Source of the DNA: Clostridiaceae bacterium
Lineage (GTDB): Bacteria; Bacillota; Clostridia; Saccharofermentanales; Saccharofermentanaceae
Length of the DNA: 64,000 nt
Direction of reading: 5' to 3'
Assembly (NCBI GenBank): GCA_012729635.1
Contig: JAAYCT010000005.1
Location: 1 to 64,000, forward strand
A model generated the notes under the pieces. That model had not been told where the DNA came from. It saw only the letters and a list, made by a program, of their open reading frames with translations, and ran no database searches. Positions 17,278 through 26,501 of the stretch are shown piece after piece. How positions within the stretch are numbered: position 1 is the stretch's first letter; every line of letters starts with the position of its first letter. The position numbers and the translations under genes were made by a program.

Positions 17278-17919
17278 ATGACAGAACGAGGAAACCAAAG
17301 TGAGATCAAGAAGAAGGGCACCTCTCCCTTTTTCGCGATGCTGGACCGCATGCAGTATATCAACCGTTGGGGTCTTATGCGAAACAACCGGACCGAGAAC
17401 ATAAAAGAACACTCCATGGACGTTGCTGTCGTAGCACACGCACTCGCGACCATTCGAAATACGGTACTGGCATCAAATAATCGGCGGGTAGATCCGCTTC
17501 TTGTGATCGGTATTGCGCTTTATCACGATGCCTCGGAAATCGTAACCGGTGATCTTCCGACTCCGATTAAATACGGGAACCCCGAGATTCTGAATGCATA
17601 CAAGAAGCTCGAGGACGAAGCGACCGAGCAATTGATTCGGCTTCTTCCGGAAGAGATGAAGGACGAGTACCGGAAACTGATGAACCCGGATCTTTCGAAC
17701 GACCGGCAGAACGAAGCATACCGCCTCGTCAAGGCGGCGGATCGTATATGTGCATATATTAAATGTGTATCGGAAGAAAAATCCGGTAATACCGAGTTTG
17801 ATTCCGCAAAAAAATCAATCGAGAAAACAATCAAAGATTTGCGACTGCCCGAAGTCGACTATTTTATGGAACAATTTATGCCGGCCTACGGAATGACGCT
17901 GGACCAGATCAGTGAGTGA
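17278..17919 (+). CDS. YfbR-like 5'-deoxynucleotidase, HD superfamily
   Basis: The 213-residue protein is an HD phosphohydrolase of the YfbR type, which dephosphorylates deoxynucleoside monophosphates. The sequence RWGLMRNNRTENIKEHSMDVAVVAHAL is the YfbR substrate-binding plus first His region. LYHDASEIVTGDLPTPIKY supplies the HD pair and the loop that selects 2'-deoxy sugars, and AADRICAYIKC gives the distal Asp. It follows dgt by 7 bp and overlaps the next start, so it belongs to the same transcript. Together the pair could set dNTP pools. Confidence 0.88.
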   Translation: MTERGNQSEIKKKGTSPFFAMLDRMQYINRWGLMRNNRTENIKEHSMDVAVVAHALATIRNTVLASNNRRVDPLLVIGIALYHDASEIVTGDLPTPIKYGNPEILNAYKKLEDEATEQLIRLLPEEMKDEYRKLMNPDLSNDRQNEAYRLVKAADRICAYIKCVSEEKSGNTEFDSAKKSIEKTIKDLRLPEVDYFMEQFMPAYGMTLDQISE

Positions 17920-20504
17920 TGATCATGATGGATAATCAAATGAGAAAAGGATATTTATGGGTTGCGTTTTTTTCGATCGGCGCGAGTCTTGTCGCGTTAA
18001 TCGTTATCGGGGCGAATCTCCTGATTCCCGGGGTCGGAAGGCGAATCTCTTCACAAGAAGAAGAAATCATCACCCGAACCGGGATTCTAGTCGGAACCGA
18101 GAACACGAAAGGGATATGGACGGAGGAGCTTGAATCAAATCTCCTTACTCTTTCCGATTATGTGCGAATCAGCCTTACGGGATCGGAGTACCTTTTGAAA
18201 AACCCGAGTGACGAAACGTTCGCACGCGATTTGGCCTTCATTGTTTTTGGGTCGCCCGCCGAATCCGAAGAGATTCTCCGGATGCTGGACGGGCGTTCGA
18301 GAAAGTATGTTATCGAAAAAGTATTGTCCGACATGAATCGAAAATATGCGCCGTCACAGGGATTTTCGCCTGAAATCGGAACGCAACTGGTCTCTTTTCA
18401 CGCGGACAATCCGATTCAGGACGAGAACGGATACGCGTTCGGGCTTCGAAAAATCTCCGGGTCAATAGACATGGAAGGCACCGAGGCGCGTACGGATTTT
18501 TTCGTTGATGATACACTTCGTCCCGGCAATTTAATCCTCGAAACGGATGATTCCGGAGGACAAATTTTCTCTATGATATGGGATGCTCGAGGGGAATCCC
18601 CCGGGATGAGGAATGTAAAGGTCCTTTTGAGAACTTCGGACGGCCGGGGAGAGGTGATTACCGGAGGACAGGTGATTATTCCTCCGTTTACCGTCGTTGA
18701 GAATGACGGTGTGTTAAAAAGTAAAGTAGCCGAGAGAGAGAACCTTGCATGGTATACGCTGGATGCGGGAGATCGGGATGCCTATATCAATTTCATCAAC
18801 ATAACGGGTGATGTTCGTGTCATCTTATATAATTTGTACGGCGATATAATCGGTGCAAATGACTTGCACGGTTATCCGCATGAAACGCTCCGCGGCGTCC
18901 GGCAGCCCAAATTGTTATCCGAAATGATTTCTTCCGGCCCGCTCGGAACGCAGAATGTTTTTTATGCCTGTGTCGAACGAAGTCCCGAAGCATCACCGAG
19001 TGTGATTGATATCGATTACACCGTCGTGTGTTCGAAGAATGTCGCGATCCATCGGGACGGACGTGTGCTTTCGGTGATTGACGAAATCGGCAATGTGCCT
19101 ACTCCGATCCCATTCCGTCCGGCTTCCGATGAGGGAGATGAAGAGCCGATCCTCTGTGCGAATGAGAACGGGGAGAAGATCGCGTTTGCGAGAGAGGATT
19201 TGAGTTTTGTACCGCTGAACGGTGTTCTGACAGCCATATCGCTACGTTCCGGAGAGGGAGGAAAAACGTACCGGGCATATCCGGATCATGATGTGCTGAA
19301 CCGTGATTATGCCTATGTTTTCGACGAAGAAACAGACGAGATTTCCTTACGAATCGTTCCTGCCGAGGGATATGCAGCAAAAATAAGCGTCTCCAATCTG
19401 AGCAAGGCCAATGCCTTGATGACACCGCAAAGCGACGGACCGATCCGGCTGGTAAGCGGTGAAAACACGATTTCCATTCGGGTTGTTTCCTTTGACGGAA
19501 CCGAGTCCGAATACAGAATGTTTATTTTAAACAAAGTGGATGAGACGGAATTCGGAGAAAGCGTCCTGACACAATTTCCTTCCGGGTATCGAAGCGGGCT
19601 ATGGCTCTTGCATAACCTGTTTCCCGATTATCGTTTTCTTCCGTATCAAACGGGGATCGATTGGGAGGAACTCGTATCGAACCAGGACTATAAGGGAACG
19701 AGTCTGGCGAACGCGATATCCCATCCCCATTGGGTAAAGCCCGACAGCATCGTCTACGACGGATCGGGATGGAAGGCCGCCAAACGGCAGGTTGTCGAGT
19801 ATTTTTTGGACCCGCGTAATTTTCTCACTCCGGTCTATGTTTTCCAGTTTGAAAAATTATCCTTCGACGCAACGGTCCACTCTGCCGAGGGAATTCGACA
19901 CATGGTGAGCGATTCCTTTTTGGATGAAAACGATATCGGTTATCCGAGAATTCTTTTTGAGGCGGGAAGTGAGGCGGGAATTTCCCCTTATTTTCTGACC
20001 AGCCGAATCCTCCAGGAAATGGGCAGACAGGGCAATTCAAAGCTTGCTTCCGGCACACTGGAGGGTTATGAGGGGTATTATAACTTCTATAATATCGGAT
20101 CAACACCGAATCCGCAGGTAATAGACGGGGCTTTAATCAACGGTGCACGTTTTTCGCAATGGGGTCGGAACCCGGACGAGCGTGAACTGACGGAAGATGA
20201 GCTCGCGATTCTCCTGCCCTGGACAACTCCCGAGAAGGCAATCAAGGGAGGTGCGTTGTGGATCGCATCGAGCTATATCGACATCGGACAGAACACGCTG
20301 TATTTCCAGAAATTCGACGTGATTGACAATGAGGACGGGCTGTATCGGCATCAATACGCACAAAATATATCGATGGCATATTCGGAAAGCTCCCGATACT
20401 TTCATACCTATTTATCCCAGGATATGCTGGGGTCACCGTTTCTTTTCATCATCCCTGTCTACGATAAAATGCCGGTTCATTACGGCGTTTTCCCCGAGAA
20501 GTAG
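17919..20504 (+). CDS. Membrane-anchored beta-N-acetylglucosaminidase with cadherin-like domain
   Basis: This 861-residue protein has one N-terminal membrane helix (about residues 12-35) and would act outside the cell on peptidoglycan. Residues about 430-545 resemble a cadherin-like beta-sandwich domain (pattern LSGENTISIRVVSFDGTESEYRMFI). Residues about 650-861 match clostridial LytD-type glucosaminidases: FEAGSEAGISPYFLTSRILQEMG contains the likely catalytic Glu near 700, followed by GYYNFYNIGS and IKGGALWIASSYIDIGQNTLYFQKF. The middle section (about 60-420) is unrecognised. The start is uncertain: ATG at 17919 overlaps the previous stop, and ATGs at 17925, 17928 and 17940 are possible, none with a strong ribosome site. 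It probably remodels the wall. Confidence 0.83.
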   Translation: MIMMDNQMRKGYLWVAFFSIGASLVALIVIGANLLIPGVGRRISSQEEEIITRTGILVGTENTKGIWTEELESNLLTLSDYVRISLTGSEYLLKNPSDETFARDLAFIVFGSPAESEEILRMLDGRSRKYVIEKVLSDMNRKYAPSQGFSPEIGTQLVSFHADNPIQDENGYAFGLRKISGSIDMEGTEARTDFFVDDTLRPGNLILETDDSGGQIFSMIWDARGESPGMRNVKVLLRTSDGRGEVITGGQVIIPPFTVVENDGVLKSKVAERENLAWYTLDAGDRDAYINFINITGDVRVILYNLYGDIIGANDLHGYPHETLRGVRQPKLLSEMISSGPLGTQNVFYACVERSPEASPSVIDIDYTVVCSKNVAIHRDGRVLSVIDEIGNVPTPIPFRPASDEGDEEPILCANENGEKIAFAREDLSFVPLNGVLTAISLRSGEGGKTYRAYPDHDVLNRDYAYVFDEETDEISLRIVPAEGYAAKISVSNLSKANALMTPQSDGPIRLVSGENTISIRVVSFDGTESEYRMFILNKVDETEFGESVLTQFPSGYRSGLWLLHNLFPDYRFLPYQTGIDWEELVSNQDYKGTSLANAISHPHWVKPDSIVYDGSGWKAAKRQVVEYFLDPRNFLTPVYVFQFEKLSFDATVHSAEGIRHMVSDSFLDENDIGYPRILFEAGSEAGISPYFLTSRILQEMGRQGNSKLASGTLEGYEGYYNFYNIGSTPNPQVIDGALINGARFSQWGRNPDERELTEDELAILLPWTTPEKAIKGGALWIASSYIDIGQNTLYFQKFDVIDNEDGLYRHQYAQNISMAYSESSRYFHTYLSQDMLGSPFLFIIPVYDKMPVHYGVFPEK

Positions 20505-20571: not shown

Positions 20572-22065
20572 ATGAAAGGAAAGAGCAAACAATCACTGAT
20601 CATCATATTGTTGATTGCGTTGATTTGCCCGATGGTTTTGTTCGGTGTCTTTTCTCGTGTGAACGCCGCAACGGCGGTTACGATCGGATTGAATGCGGAT
20701 ACGGACATTGTAGAGGCCGGAGACACGATTTCGGTGGATGTCGTCGTGGATACCTTCCCCCGTTTGATTCGTTTCGGACCGATTGAAATGCAATTTGATT
20801 CCTCAAGCGTCTCTTTTGCCGGTATGGATCGCGGCGAGGATATGCCTTCCACATTTTCTATCGATCACTCGGCGAGCACCGGAGTGATTGCGATTACCGG
20901 CGTTGACTCAACGGTTGAGAATCAGATTCTTTCCAACCAGACGGCCCCGACAGCGGATGCCGAAGGGAATCCGATCAGTCCTCCCGAAGATCCGTCGATG
21001 AATCGGACAGAGAGTACCGTGTTGTGTCGTCTGTATTTTGTTGTGCTGGAGTCTTCGAAAGCCGAACTGAGATTTTGGATCAGCAACGCAGCCGGGTTTA
21101 TTAACAGTTCCTTTGAGACACTGTCGATTCATACGGAATCGCCGATTTCGATTCCCGTTCAGACCGTGGTTTCCACGGACGCTTATTTATCGATGCTTGA
21201 AATCGACGGAGCCACCTTGAGCCCTGATTTTAATCCGATGATTTTTGAATACAGCGCTTCGGTTCCCCGATCGGTTACCGATCTTGTCATTAACGCGGTT
21301 CCGAGCAGTTTATCGTCTCAGGTCTACATCACCGGGAATACGGCGCTGACCTTGGGAGAAAATCGAATACGGATCAGTGTTTTGGCTCAGGATATGAAAA
21401 CCACTTTGGAATATGTTGTCTTATTGACGCGCGAAAGCAGTTTTGTTCCCCCCGGAGCAAAGATAACCGATCCGAACGGAGAAACTTTTTTGTTTGCGGA
21501 TTTTCCTGAGAATTTGGCACTTCCCTCTGATTTCTATCAGAGCGAAATTCTGCTGAACGGACTCAAAGTGCCTGCATTTCGCATGGATGGGATGCGTGAT
21601 GTTCTTTTATATCTGACATCCGCGTCCGGTGAAACGGGTTTGTATGTTTATTCGCCGATTTCCGGTGCGGTTCTGAAGTTTAACTCCGACGATGTTTTTT
21701 TTCGATTGTCGCAATTGCTGACGGTTGTTCCGATCCCGGACGGGATCATTCCGCCCGAGGGATTCGAACCGGACACCGTTTTATTCCGGGGACAATCCGT
21801 TCCGGGATATACTTCCGCGGACGGAAGGACACGCATTCTTTATATGCAGGATGATACCGGTAAGGCCCGTTTCTACGTCGTCGACACGAAAAATAATGAT
21901 CTGTACCCGTTCACGGCGCAAAAAAAGGAAGATACGTCCCTGTTCCAGGTTTTGTTTATTACATTCCTTGTTTTATCCGTTGCGGAGGCGGCGATGCTGG
22001 CAATCGTCATTTTTCAGGTTCGAAAAAGAAAACCGCGCGTCCTGAATGTCAGGAGAGTGCAGTGA
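20572..22065 (+). CDS. Secreted/anchored cohesin-like protein with cadherin-like domain and C-terminal helix
   Basis: The 497-residue protein starts with a signal peptide (about 1-33, ending VNA). Residues about 36-200 look like a cohesin-type beta sandwich (VEAGDTISVDVVVDTFPRLI pattern). Residues about 208-290 resemble the cadherin-like domain also seen in the preceding protein. Two tandem modules of about 54 residues follow (about 316-370 and 390-445), each with a pattern of V-L-x-G-x-x-V-P followed by D-G-x-x-x-x-L-Y and an F/L-Y-V segment. A C-terminal TM helix (about 460-483) with the basic tail RKRKPR anchors it. TATAAT at 20525-20530 has no clear -35. The role is likely at the cell surface; dockerin binding is not implied. 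Confidence 0.75.
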   Translation: MKGKSKQSLIIILLIALICPMVLFGVFSRVNAATAVTIGLNADTDIVEAGDTISVDVVVDTFPRLIRFGPIEMQFDSSSVSFAGMDRGEDMPSTFSIDHSASTGVIAITGVDSTVENQILSNQTAPTADAEGNPISPPEDPSMNRTESTVLCRLYFVVLESSKAELRFWISNAAGFINSSFETLSIHTESPISIPVQTVVSTDAYLSMLEIDGATLSPDFNPMIFEYSASVPRSVTDLVINAVPSSLSSQVYITGNTALTLGENRIRISVLAQDMKTTLEYVVLLTRESSFVPPGAKITDPNGETFLFADFPENLALPSDFYQSEILLNGLKVPAFRMDGMRDVLLYLTSASGETGLYVYSPISGAVLKFNSDDVFFRLSQLLTVVPIPDGIIPPEGFEPDTVLFRGQSVPGYTSADGRTRILYMQDDTGKARFYVVDTKNNDLYPFTAQKKEDTSLFQVLFITFLVLSVAEAAMLAIVIFQVRKRKPRVLNVRRVQ

Positions 22066-24095
22066 TGACCGTGTCTGAATTCCTGCGCGGCGGCGATTCG
22101 TTGACCGCAAAACAAAAAAAACAAAGGGAAATCCTGCTTTATCTTATATTCGGCGGACTGACGACGTTGGTCAACCTGATCGTTTTCTGGCTCTTGCAAA
22201 AGGCGTTTGCAGGTCACACGTGGAAAATTCAAATCTTTGAATACTCGCCGGACTTCTTGTTCGTCATTCAAAATATCGTTGCCTGGGTTGCCGCGGTTAC
22301 GTTTGCATTTGTAACCAATCGAGCGTGGGTATTTGTATCCAAGGGCCCCTTTTTTCGGGAGATGCTCCATTTTTTCGGTGCCCGGGTCGGTTCACTTGTG
22401 CTTTTCGAGGTGTTACTGCTCTCTCTTATGGTGTTTGTTTTCGAAGCATCAACCGGAATTCCCAAGGAAGAGATATGCGTTACCCTTATGACCATCTCTT
22501 TCAACTGGGCGTTCGCAATCAAGCTGATTGTTTCCGTATTTGTTGTGGTTCCGGCGAATTATATTTTCAGCCGCTGGTTTGTTTTCGGGAAACAACCTGT
22601 AAAAAATTCGTCGGATAAAATATCGTTCGGGCATGCCGGGGGATGTGCACAAAAAGAAGACACGCTCGTTCCCGACATTTTTTTATCCGCCAATCGTTTT
22701 GGTATCAAACTTGGCCTGGAGCGTATGCTTGCTCTTTCCGAAAAACTGGGAAATCCTCATGAGGATCTGTCCTGCATTCACGTTGCGGGAACGAACGGAA
22801 AAGGATCGGTCGTATCCTATATCGCATCGATTCTGGCCGCGAGCGACCGACGTGTCGGCATTTACACTTCTCCGTATCTGGAGCGATTTTCGGAAAGAAT
22901 TCGCATATTGGACGGATCGACTTCAATGGATGCCATACAAAAAAACGACGCGCACGGCGAAATATCCGCAGATGCTTTGAGGAAACTGGGAAAACGGGTG
23001 GAAGAAGCCGTTCGGGGGATGTTGGAAGAAGGATTCGAACATCCTACGGAATTTGAATTGGTTACCGGTGCCGCCTTCCTGTACTTTAAAGAAAGCAAAT
23101 GCGATTACGTGGTATTGGAAACCGGTCTCGGCGGGAGATTGGATTCAACCAATATCATCCGTGCGCCGATCGCGTCAATCATCACGGCGATCGGTTATGA
23201 TCATACGGATCGATTGGGCAGGACAATCGGAGAAATCGCGGGCGAAAAGGCAGGCATCATTAAGCACGGATGCCCCGTATTTTTGCTTTCTCCTCATGAC
23301 ACACCCCTGACGAAAACCGAGGCGGATGAAGTAGAGCGAGTGATCAAGGAGCGATGTGAACAATCGGATTCTTCCTTACGGATTGTCTCCGCCGAAGATA
23401 TTAAGGAAAGAACGTTTCTTTCACGGAAGCAGTTCATCCGCCTGCGTGATTTTTCCGATCCGGTATCCATCGGCCATATCGGACTTCACCAGGCGTTTAA
23501 TGCTGCACTGGCCGCCGTATCGGTCCGATCGATGGTTACGGAGGAAATCACTCGAAAAGGTCTTTCCAAAGCGGTTTGGAAGGGAAGAAATGAAGTCATC
23601 TCTTTGAATCCTCCGATTATTCTGGACGGAGCGCATAACCCACAGGGGATTATGGCTTTATGCAGTGCCCTGAACGAATCATTCGGAGAGGAGTTCCGAA
23701 TCCGTGCGCCGCGTCTCATTTTCGGGGTGATGAGCGATAAGGATTACGATGAAATGATACGCGTACTGTTTCGTTCCGCCTCCTTTTCGTTTCGGGAAGT
23801 CATCTGCGTAAGCGTGAAACAGGAAAGAAGTCTGTCGGCGCAGAAACTGGCCGATTCGTTTCGCAGAATACTTTCCGAAGAGGCTGAGTTTTACAACCGT
23901 CCTTCCGGTATGTATAATATTCAGGGCGAGATCCATGCCTTCGATGACGCCGAAACCACCGTAAGAGAGGTGCTTTCTCAGACGAGCGAAGACGGGGTTC
24001 CGATAGTATGTGCCGGGTCGCTTTACCTGATCGGACAGGTTCGGAGCATCTTTATCAATTATTCGGGAGGAACGGAATCGGATGGATTGGGTTGA
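22065..24095 (+). CDS. folC: GtrA-like membrane domain fused to folylpolyglutamate synthase (FolC)
   Basis: This is one uninterrupted frame of 676 residues. Residues about 20-185 form a GtrA-type domain with four hydrophobic helices, containing FGGLTTLVNLIVFW, FVTNRAWVFVSKG and NYIFSRWFVFG; such domains are linked to polyprenyl-linked sugar transfer. After a polar linker of about 25 residues, the region about 210-676 is a complete FolC: RFGIKLGLERM, the P-loop HVAGTNGKGSVVSY (242-248), TSPYLERFSERI, ETGLGGRLDSTN, GYDHTDRLG and DGAHNPQGI. FolC adds glutamate to folates. The ATG at 22065 overlaps the previous stop and lies 7 nt after AGGAGAG. No internal ribosome site with a start codon is evident at the junction, so I read it as a true fusion. 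Confidence 0.85.
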   Translation: MTVSEFLRGGDSLTAKQKKQREILLYLIFGGLTTLVNLIVFWLLQKAFAGHTWKIQIFEYSPDFLFVIQNIVAWVAAVTFAFVTNRAWVFVSKGPFFREMLHFFGARVGSLVLFEVLLLSLMVFVFEASTGIPKEEICVTLMTISFNWAFAIKLIVSVFVVVPANYIFSRWFVFGKQPVKNSSDKISFGHAGGCAQKEDTLVPDIFLSANRFGIKLGLERMLALSEKLGNPHEDLSCIHVAGTNGKGSVVSYIASILAASDRRVGIYTSPYLERFSERIRILDGSTSMDAIQKNDAHGEISADALRKLGKRVEEAVRGMLEEGFEHPTEFELVTGAAFLYFKESKCDYVVLETGLGGRLDSTNIIRAPIASIITAIGYDHTDRLGRTIGEIAGEKAGIIKHGCPVFLLSPHDTPLTKTEADEVERVIKERCEQSDSSLRIVSAEDIKERTFLSRKQFIRLRDFSDPVSIGHIGLHQAFNAALAAVSVRSMVTEEITRKGLSKAVWKGRNEVISLNPPIILDGAHNPQGIMALCSALNESFGEEFRIRAPRLIFGVMSDKDYDEMIRVLFRSASFSFREVICVSVKQERSLSAQKLADSFRRILSEEAEFYNRPSGMYNIQGEIHAFDDAETTVREVLSQTSEDGVPIVCAGSLYLIGQVRSIFINYSGGTESDGLG

Positions 24096-24969
24096 AGCCG
24101 CAAAATCAATTCCGCCGCTTGAAAGTCGTGATTTGTTGCGTTTCGGACTTGCTTCGGACGAACAAAACATCGTGATGACGCAGTTCAATAAAGCGCTTAA
24201 AAACGCACAATCCGATAGTGCGGATATCGCAGCAATCACTTTAAAAAAACTTCTGACTCGATTTCCCGAATGGGGAGAAGCCGCCGTTCTCTATGGTATC
24301 TGCCTTGCAATGGACGGAAAACTCACGCGCGCGCAAGCGGTTTTTCGACACGCTTTGGAGATCGGAATTCGTTCGGAAAAGATCACTTATCTTGCTCAGG
24401 TCCTAAACCGCGATGCGGCAAACGAACGATCCGCCAGACAAAAGCCGCCGGAAGAAATCAATCCGGCGAAAGTTCTGATCGGAAGCGTCATACCGAAACC
24501 GAACCCGATGGTCCAGGAAGAGAACCAAATTCGTCCGAGAACCCATATGCAGGCTCCGATATTGATGAAAGCGTCACGTCACTCATCCAGAGCCAAGCTT
24601 GCGACGGATCGGGAGAGACGGGAACTTCTGATGCAGTCTACTTCATCAAACGGAGAGTTGCCGGACGATGAAATTGATGTTTCCATTCCCAAGACCCCTG
24701 CGGAAAAATTACGCATTACGTTAGTGATTCTCGGAATCGCGGCGTTGTTAACCGGCATTTATTTTTTAACCACATTATGGATATTACCCGCAATCGAAAA
24801 GGTTAGAGATCGAAATCGAGCGGAGGAAAAGCTGGAGTATTTGACCCGTGCGCTGTACGAAAAAGAGAATAACCCCGAAATTGCCGGAATCATTTCCGAT
24901 TACGAAGCTTCTTTTTCCGAAACGCATAAAGCCGAGTCTGTTGAACCGTCCGGTCAGAATCCGTCCTGA
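24082..24969 (+). CDS. TPR-like protein with one membrane helix
   Basis: The 295-residue protein has an N-terminal helical part (about 25-110) with a tetratricopeptide-like pattern (AAVLYGICLAMDGKLTRAQAVFRHALEIG). A Pro/Arg-rich linker follows to about 210, then a single TM helix (about 214-236) and a short coiled-coil tail. With the TPR side on the N-terminus and a positive-inside pattern, the repeats would lie in the cytoplasm. It overlaps the folC fusion by 14 bp, with GGGAGGA upstream, so it is coupled to that gene. I cannot assign a function; TPR domains suggest protein binding. Confidence 0.7.
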   Translation: MDWVEAAKSIPPLESRDLLRFGLASDEQNIVMTQFNKALKNAQSDSADIAAITLKKLLTRFPEWGEAAVLYGICLAMDGKLTRAQAVFRHALEIGIRSEKITYLAQVLNRDAANERSARQKPPEEINPAKVLIGSVIPKPNPMVQEENQIRPRTHMQAPILMKASRHSSRAKLATDRERRELLMQSTSSNGELPDDEIDVSIPKTPAEKLRITLVILGIAALLTGIYFLTTLWILPAIEKVRDRNRAEEKLEYLTRALYEKENNPEIAGIISDYEASFSETHKAESVEPSGQNPS

Positions 24970-24992: not shown

Positions 24993-26501
24993 ATGAAATA
25001 CATAAGCACCCGAGGATACCCTGATTCATTTTCGTCCGCAGAAGTGATTAAAATGGGAATCGCGCCGGACGGCGGTCTGTTCGTTCCCGAAACAATCCCG
25101 CAGATTACAAGGGATGAGCTCCGGGAATGGAAGGATTTGCCGTACGCGAATGTTGCGACGGAGGTTCTTTCGCGATTTCTTACCGATTACGATCGATCGG
25201 AGCTTTTGGAGTATTGCGAGATTGCGTATTCCGAAGAAAAATTCGGGGAAACACCGATTCCGCTGGTCCAACTCAATCAATATAATCCGAGAGAATTTAT
25301 TCTGGAGTTGTGGCACGGACCGACCTGTGCATTCAAGGATGTAGCGCTTCAATTGCTACCCTACCTGATGACTGCCGCGGCACGTAAAACTGAGGATAAC
25401 CGAAAAATCCTGATTCTGACCGCGACTTCCGGAGATACCGGCAAGGCGGCACTCGAAGGGTTTAAGGATGTTCCCGGCACCGAGGTGATGGTATTCTATC
25501 CGTCCGAGGGCGTTTCGGAGACACAACGACTCCACATGGCGACGACCGAGGGTGAGAATACTCATGTAATCGCGGTCCGGGGTTGCTTTGACGATACACA
25601 GACCGGTGTGAAACGCATATTTTCGGACGAGGCTCTTCGTGATGAGCTCCTGCGAAAAAACATGTTCCTTTCCTCCGCAAACTCGATTAACTGGGGCCGC
25701 TTGGTCCCGCAGATTGCATATTATGTTTATTCGTACGTATCCTTGCTGTCTTCCGAGCGGATTGATGAGGGAGAAAAGATCAATATTGTTGTTCCGACCG
25801 GTAATTTCGGAAACATAATGGCTGCGTGGTATGCCAAAATGATGGGCATCCCGATTCATCGATTGATCTGCGCTTCCAATCGAAACAAGGTATTATCGGA
25901 TTTCTTCCGGACCGGAGTATATGATCGGCAAAGAGAGTTTTTTAAAACCAACTCGCCCTCCATGGATATTCTGATCTCATCCAACTTGGAGCGATTGCTT
26001 TTTGAAATTTCCGATAAAGACAGTCAAAAGGTAAAAGGATGGATGAAAAATCTGTTTGAGGAGGGAAAATACAGCGTTGACCCGGTTACGCTTCGGGCGC
26101 TTCAAACCGGTTTTGTAGGCGGATTCGCGGACGAGACCGGAATCGCAAAATCGATTCGGGATACATACGATCGCTGTGATCATGTTATCGATACCCATAC
26201 GGCTGTCGGATTTAACGTTTACGGAAGGTATTTCCAGCGTTCCGGAGACCAGACAAAGACTATTTTCGTCTCCACCGCAAGTCCGTTCAAATTTGTTGAG
26301 TCGGTTATGGACGCACTTATGGGCAGCGGCTATTCAAGCGGAAGATCCCAGGAGGTTCTGATTCGAGAACTCAGCGAAGAAAGCGGCCTTATGGTGCCGT
26401 TTACGCTGGCGGGTCTTTCTGACAAACCGATCCGACACGATTCGGTGATCGAAAAAGAAGAGATGATGGAGGAGGTTCGGAAAAGAATTCCCTCCGATTA
26501 G
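24993..26501 (+). CDS. thrC: Threonine synthase
   Basis: The 502-residue PLP enzyme converts O-phosphohomoserine to threonine. The N-terminal motif YISTRGYPDSFSSAEVIKMGIAPDGGLFVP is typical of the longer ThrC class. The Schiff-base lysine is Lys115 in GPTCAFKDVALQLLPYL, and TATSGDTGKAALEGF and VPTGNFGNIMAAWYAK bind the cofactor. CGGAGGAAA lies 5 nt before the ATG. Its TAG stop shares bases with the stop of the convergent padR gene, and no terminator separates them. No other threonine-pathway genes are near. Confidence 0.95.
   Translation: MKYISTRGYPDSFSSAEVIKMGIAPDGGLFVPETIPQITRDELREWKDLPYANVATEVLSRFLTDYDRSELLEYCEIAYSEEKFGETPIPLVQLNQYNPREFILELWHGPTCAFKDVALQLLPYLMTAAARKTEDNRKILILTATSGDTGKAALEGFKDVPGTEVMVFYPSEGVSETQRLHMATTEGENTHVIAVRGCFDDTQTGVKRIFSDEALRDELLRKNMFLSSANSINWGRLVPQIAYYVYSYVSLLSSERIDEGEKINIVVPTGNFGNIMAAWYAKMMGIPIHRLICASNRNKVLSDFFRTGVYDRQREFFKTNSPSMDILISSNLERLLFEISDKDSQKVKGWMKNLFEEGKYSVDPVTLRALQTGFVGGFADETGIAKSIRDTYDRCDHVIDTHTAVGFNVYGRYFQRSGDQTKTIFVSTASPFKFVESVMDALMGSGYSSGRSQEVLIRELSEESGLMVPFTLAGLSDKPIRHDSVIEKEEMMEEVRKRIPSD

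Follow-up and report, generated by a model that had tools for sequence, protein, structure and literature searches.

The locus described here raises the question of whether a single bacterial protein can join a GtrA-like membrane domain to folylpolyglutamate synthase (FolC), and what such a protein would do. The first-pass annotation of the window (the whole 64,000-nucleotide stretch of DNA analysed) had proposed an in-frame fusion of a GtrA domain with a complete FolC. This is confirmed: the frame at 22065-24095 translates as 676 codons without interruption, and both domains score over curated cut-offs. The GtrA-FolC fusion is real and uncommon. Its best explanation, in which we have fairly good confidence, is a lineage-specific gtrA-folC fusion encoding one protein, a normal FolC held at the membrane.

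The fused protein and its operon

Features of the fused gene and its neighbourhood are collected in Table 1. The ATG that opens the frame is preceded by AGGAG around 10 nt upstream; initiation at the in-frame GTG just before it (22062) is less likely.

Table 1. Coordinates (window numbering) of the fused gene, its parts and its neighbours, with the basis of each assignment
Feature	Position	Strand	Basis
SagB-like glucosaminidase with weak cadherin-like stretch, upstream	17916..20504	+	NF052642, 46 bits, below cut-off; syntenic in L034 and L041
Surface protein with cadherin-like domain, upstream	20572..22065	+	PF12733, 34 bits; syntenic in L034 and L041
Fused gtrA-folC open reading frame, 676 aa	22065..24095	+	ORF, translation, Pfam, NCBIfam
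GtrA/DPMS four-helix membrane domain, residues 26-174	22140..22586	+	Pfam PF04138, hydrophobic stretches, AlphaFold2 helices, eight near-invariant GtcA residues
Linker, residues 175-203; former gtrA stop / folC start site	22587..22673	+	Low AlphaFold2 confidence, congener alignment
FolC (dihydrofolate/folylpolyglutamate synthase) domain, residues 204-662	22674..24050	+	TIGR01499, PDB sequence and fold matches to FPGS
P-loop GTNGKGS, residues 242-248	22788..22808	+	Sequence; conserved across FolC rows of the order alignment
DGAHNP motif, residues 521-526	23625..23642	+	Sequence; D521, G522, H524 and N525 invariant across FolC rows
Membrane protein (TPR type per first-pass annotation), downstream, 14-nt overlap with fusion	24082..24969	+	Syntenic in L034 and L041
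Threonine synthase, end of syntenic block	24993..26501	+	TIGR00260, 215 bits; syntenic

The N-terminal half matches Pfam PF04138 (GtrA_DPMS_TM) at 43.2 bits, compared with a gathering score of 26.1, over profile positions 2-117 of 117. Hydropathy peaks in this half at residues 23-41, 65-83, 108-126 and 144-162, and four transmembrane helices fit the GtrA family. The AlphaFold2 model of the fusion contains four long helices (residues 15-47, 64-89, 96-130 and 148-173), a disordered, low-confidence segment at residues 177-197 and a high-confidence FolC fold. In GtcA homologues, eight residues are conserved in more than 99% of sequences (PMC7389260). Residues A81, N85, V89, F90, F103, R107, K153 and N165 are present in all 17 aligned GtrA sequences, fused and unfused alike; conservation was read from a separate GtrA alignment, GtrA-only rows having been misplaced by MAFFT in the mixed alignment A2 that served as AlphaFold2 input. 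Four helices and the eight near-invariant residues are therefore shared with the GtrA family, as represented by GtrA of Shigella phage SfX, GtcA of Listeria and Rv3789, the eight including the equivalents of R95, N132, F74 and K121. The fused protein differs from that family in its C-terminal extension by FolC and in the lack of an adjacent GT2 glycosyltransferase.

The C-terminal half yields a TIGR01499 (folC) match at residues 218-662, with a score of 313 bits (cut-off 163) and coverage of profile positions 1-399 of 400, while Pfam places Mur_ligase_M at residues 240-486 and Mur_ligase_C at 507-652. The EKAGIIK region lies at residues 394-400, and all FolC catalytic motifs checked are intact. 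When the AlphaFold2 model was compared with the PDB, FPGS/FolC entries occupied ranks 1-17, the best of them with a TM-score of about 0.83 over the target; by sequence and by fold, the nearest solved structures to this half are folate enzymes, with Mur ligases well behind. The whole catalytic domain, the P-loop, the DGAHNP and EKAGIIK motifs and the fold are thus held in common with bacterial FolC (TIGR01499; PDB codes 1o5z, 1jbw, 2vor, 1w78), from which the fusion is distinguished by a membrane domain preceding FolC and by the disappearance of FolC's own start codon. The FolC proteins known to us are soluble housekeeping enzymes that initiate at their own codon.

The fused gene is the only FolC of the genome, which encodes DHPS and DHFR as well. 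If the organism makes folate, then, the fused gene must supply its dihydrofolate synthase / folylpolyglutamate synthase. The DHPS gene (folP, G000:C43:82235-82996) shares a contig with the fusion, lying about 58 kb downstream.

These observations weigh on the suggestion of the first-pass annotation that the fusion might act on a different glutamate acceptor. Such a protein would be a membrane-bound ligase whose glutamate acceptor is not folate but a lipid-linked or surface molecule, a role that the association of GtrA with lipid-linked sugars and the presence of surface proteins in the operon might seem to favour. Nevertheless, the suggestion finds no support: the genome, which has DHPS and DHFR, contains no other FolC, every FolC motif examined is retained, the nearest structures are those of folate enzymes, and the same FolC adjoins the same GtrA in unfused relatives. 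We consider a new role of this kind very improbable.

The operon itself is largely as first described, with weaker labels for two of its members: the gene called a glucosaminidase has only a sub-cut-off SagB match, and the supposed cohesin-like protein only a cadherin-like one. The block of glucosaminidase-like, cadherin-like, GtrA, FolC, small membrane protein and threonine synthase genes is kept in L034, a congener locus, and in L041, which is more distant and in which gtrA and folC are two genes. The membrane protein at 24082-24969, which has no Pfam or NCBIfam match, is kept beside folC across the order, being found also in L033 and L041.

The junction and its origin

In two congeners gtrA and folC are separate genes in different frames, overlapping by 11 nt (TAA stop / ATG start), an arrangement in which loss of the stop and the start would fuse the two. 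Alignment of the window with these congeners reveals a net frame change, with the gtrA stop gone and the folC start gone (ATG replaced by AAA). We infer from this alignment that the fusion is a derived state, originating from two adjacent co-directional genes. The first-pass annotation had envisaged a lost stop codon between neighbours: the joining of neighbouring genes stands, stop loss by itself does not, since the frame change and the loss of the start were involved too. It had also held that separate genes in close relatives would count against the fusion. The congeners do carry two genes, from which a recent fusion in this lineage is read, and the fusion stands.

The frame has no ATG, GTG or TTG codon between residues 161 and 221, so that full-length FolC can be made only through the fused frame, barring a non-standard or truncating start. 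A truncating start has been weighed, in which an internal codon of a genuine fused frame (for example ATG 22725, encoding M221, or the rare ATT 22677) would yield free FolC as well, so that tethering would be partial. A GGAG lies a few bases upstream of ATG 22725 and the TIGR01499 match begins only at residue 218. However, in relatives with an upstream start of their own, GGAG...ATG belongs to the conserved stretch that encodes LGLERM, and its conservation as coding sequence means that it is no evidence of initiation at 22725; moreover, a start at M221 would lose the SANRFGIKLGLE stretch, which is nearly unchanged in the congeners. Internal initiation is accordingly judged improbable.

Since the congeners are unfused and only about 62-63% identical to the window in FolC, the junction is without confirmation from a close relative, and an assembly or sequencing artefact had to be weighed: one base missing near 22634-22690, with two overlapping genes in reality. 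A one-base insertion does give a folC ATG at 22633 and the frame relation of the congeners, and a few insertion positions also yield a tight stop/start overlap with a nearby gtrA stop. Most such insertions, on the other hand, lead to a gene overlap of 129 nt, unlike that in relatives, and among exhaustive single edits of 22570-22700 no substitution and no deletion restores two proper genes. The operon neighbours of the fusion are full length against L034. A coding-frame scan of the same assembly, taking in the window and a further 331 kb in stretches (395 kb altogether), flagged 17 gene pairs, which proved by eye to be ordinary neighbours or antisense shadows; no recognisably broken genes were encountered. 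In a control with planted frameshifts the strict scan detected 49 of 150, about a third, so the error bound that it sets is a loose one, at most a few per 100 kb. The chance of one error falling inside the 60-base junction is small. A true GtrA-FolC fusion is, furthermore, known elsewhere in the order (see below). An artefact is therefore regarded as unlikely.

The gene pair from which the fusion would derive is widespread: of 58 genomes sampled from the order, the organism's own among them, 56 have gtrA and folC next to each other and in the same direction, nearly always as two genes. The exceptions are G048, which has no FolC match, and G053, which has neither. About a third of the unfused pairs (L006, L009, L020 and L055, for example) lie in one frame with one or two stops between, where loss of the stop could fuse them. 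Stop read-through in these same-frame pairs was considered and dropped: the stop varies (TAA, TAG, TGA), some pairs have two, and a shared frame at 12 of 32 loci is the chance expectation.

Other fusions in the order

Matches were obtained in 179 of the 188 genomes of the order. The search for both domains in one frame elsewhere, which had been proposed with the first-pass annotation, found them in three genomes of genus g19 besides the window (G055, G072 and G073), Pfam recognising both domains in each. In a further genome of that clade, G074, the FolC frame is open to the contig edge and begins in sequence resembling a GtrA tail. A second fusion thus exists in another family of the order (f2), comprising three species and, with G074, probably a fourth.

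The g19 fusions (L049, L052 and L053) have the same domain order in one frame as the window, from which they differ in a shorter GtrA domain, a different linker and a separate origin on the FolC tree. There the window and the g19 clade stand far apart and fusion needs separate gains; the tree counted G074 as unfused, and a single gain is the best reading for the g19 set. The placement of the sequences argues that the window and g19 fusions arose independently.

Three further candidates were rejected. The open frame of 683 in G084 is not a fusion, its translation having two stops between the domains; in the long frame of G174 (near 970) FolC is not preceded by GtrA; and G112, also with an open frame near 970, has a FolC frame of 468 codons and no GtrA-FolC fusion. 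Outside the order, none of the matches listed from samples of the class (391 genomes) and of the phylum (150 genomes) has a GtrA part in one frame with FolC, although the listing may omit rare or divergent cases. Three genomes of family f135, genus g294 (G648, G684 and G610), have FolC within open frames of 734-793 codons, and these are candidates for further fusions of FolC.

In the literature searched, nothing relevant was found on GtrA joined with FolC. FolC is merged with another domain in haloarchaeal FolC-FolP fusions such as Nmag_2554 of Natrialba magadii (PMC3403918); there the partner is another folate enzyme, whereas in the window it is an unrelated membrane domain. Both families are well known; their combination in one protein is new, and it has formed at least twice from genes that were neighbours.

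A FolC probably held at the membrane

Membrane tethering, put forward as one possibility in the first-pass annotation, emerges as the most direct consequence of the fusion and is supported by the four helices, the flexible linker and the FolC fold of the AlphaFold2 model. The genome's only FolC is thus likely to be membrane-anchored. A cytoplasmic position of both termini is suggested by positive charge at the N-terminus and by the last helix, whose end is basic; it would place FolC where its substrates are. In such a protein the four-helix GtrA domain would sit in the membrane, beginning and ending on the cytoplasmic face, and a short flexible linker would connect it there to FolC. Its FolC half would have the usual acceptors of glutamate, dihydropteroate and tetrahydrofolates, but would work at the membrane, and no new chemistry would be called for: the protein may be bifunctional or simply tethered. 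As both halves keep their conserved residues, the simplest reading is an ordinary FolC tethered to the inner membrane face by a flippase-type GtrA. We infer co-transcription, membrane location, topology, retention of both activities and the absence of new chemistry.

The ancestral function of GtrA, the movement of a lipid-linked sugar or a helper role therein, is most likely retained in the GtrA half. GtrA domains are tied to such sugars, their flipping being only hypothesised even for characterised members. No GT2 polyprenyl-phosphate glycosyltransferase was seen by Pfam or NCBIfam among the adjacent operon genes examined, which fall into other families or are unassigned; a GT2 partner nearby is typical of the GtrA family, not obligatory. 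With no glycosyltransferase partner in the operon, a sugar-related role would be drawn solely from family resemblance. The genome has a second GtrA of 157 aa (G000:C38:79674-80021, locus L002), directly upstream of a family 2 glycosyltransferase gene, which is in turn followed by a gene reading like UDP-GlcNAc 2-epimerase. A GtrA gene directly before a family 2 glycosyltransferase gene is the usual GtrA-GtrB arrangement.

Conserved adjacency and repeated fusion are the grounds for a broader proposal, that the GtrA-FolC pairing is functional throughout the order: a GtrA-like protein would work with FolC at the membrane, and the two would have been fused at least twice because contact helps. Such a pairing might serve to retain folates or polyglutamates at the membrane, or to link folate state with envelope synthesis. 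Genes that overlap closely within an operon are easily fused whether or not their products cooperate, for which reason we hold this proposal to be unlikely.

A membrane-anchored FolC that arose twice from a gene pair conserved across the order would allow a functional link between folate and the envelope to be tested against a by-product of operon overlap, and the present work offers several natural, predicted membrane-tethered FolC sequences for assay.
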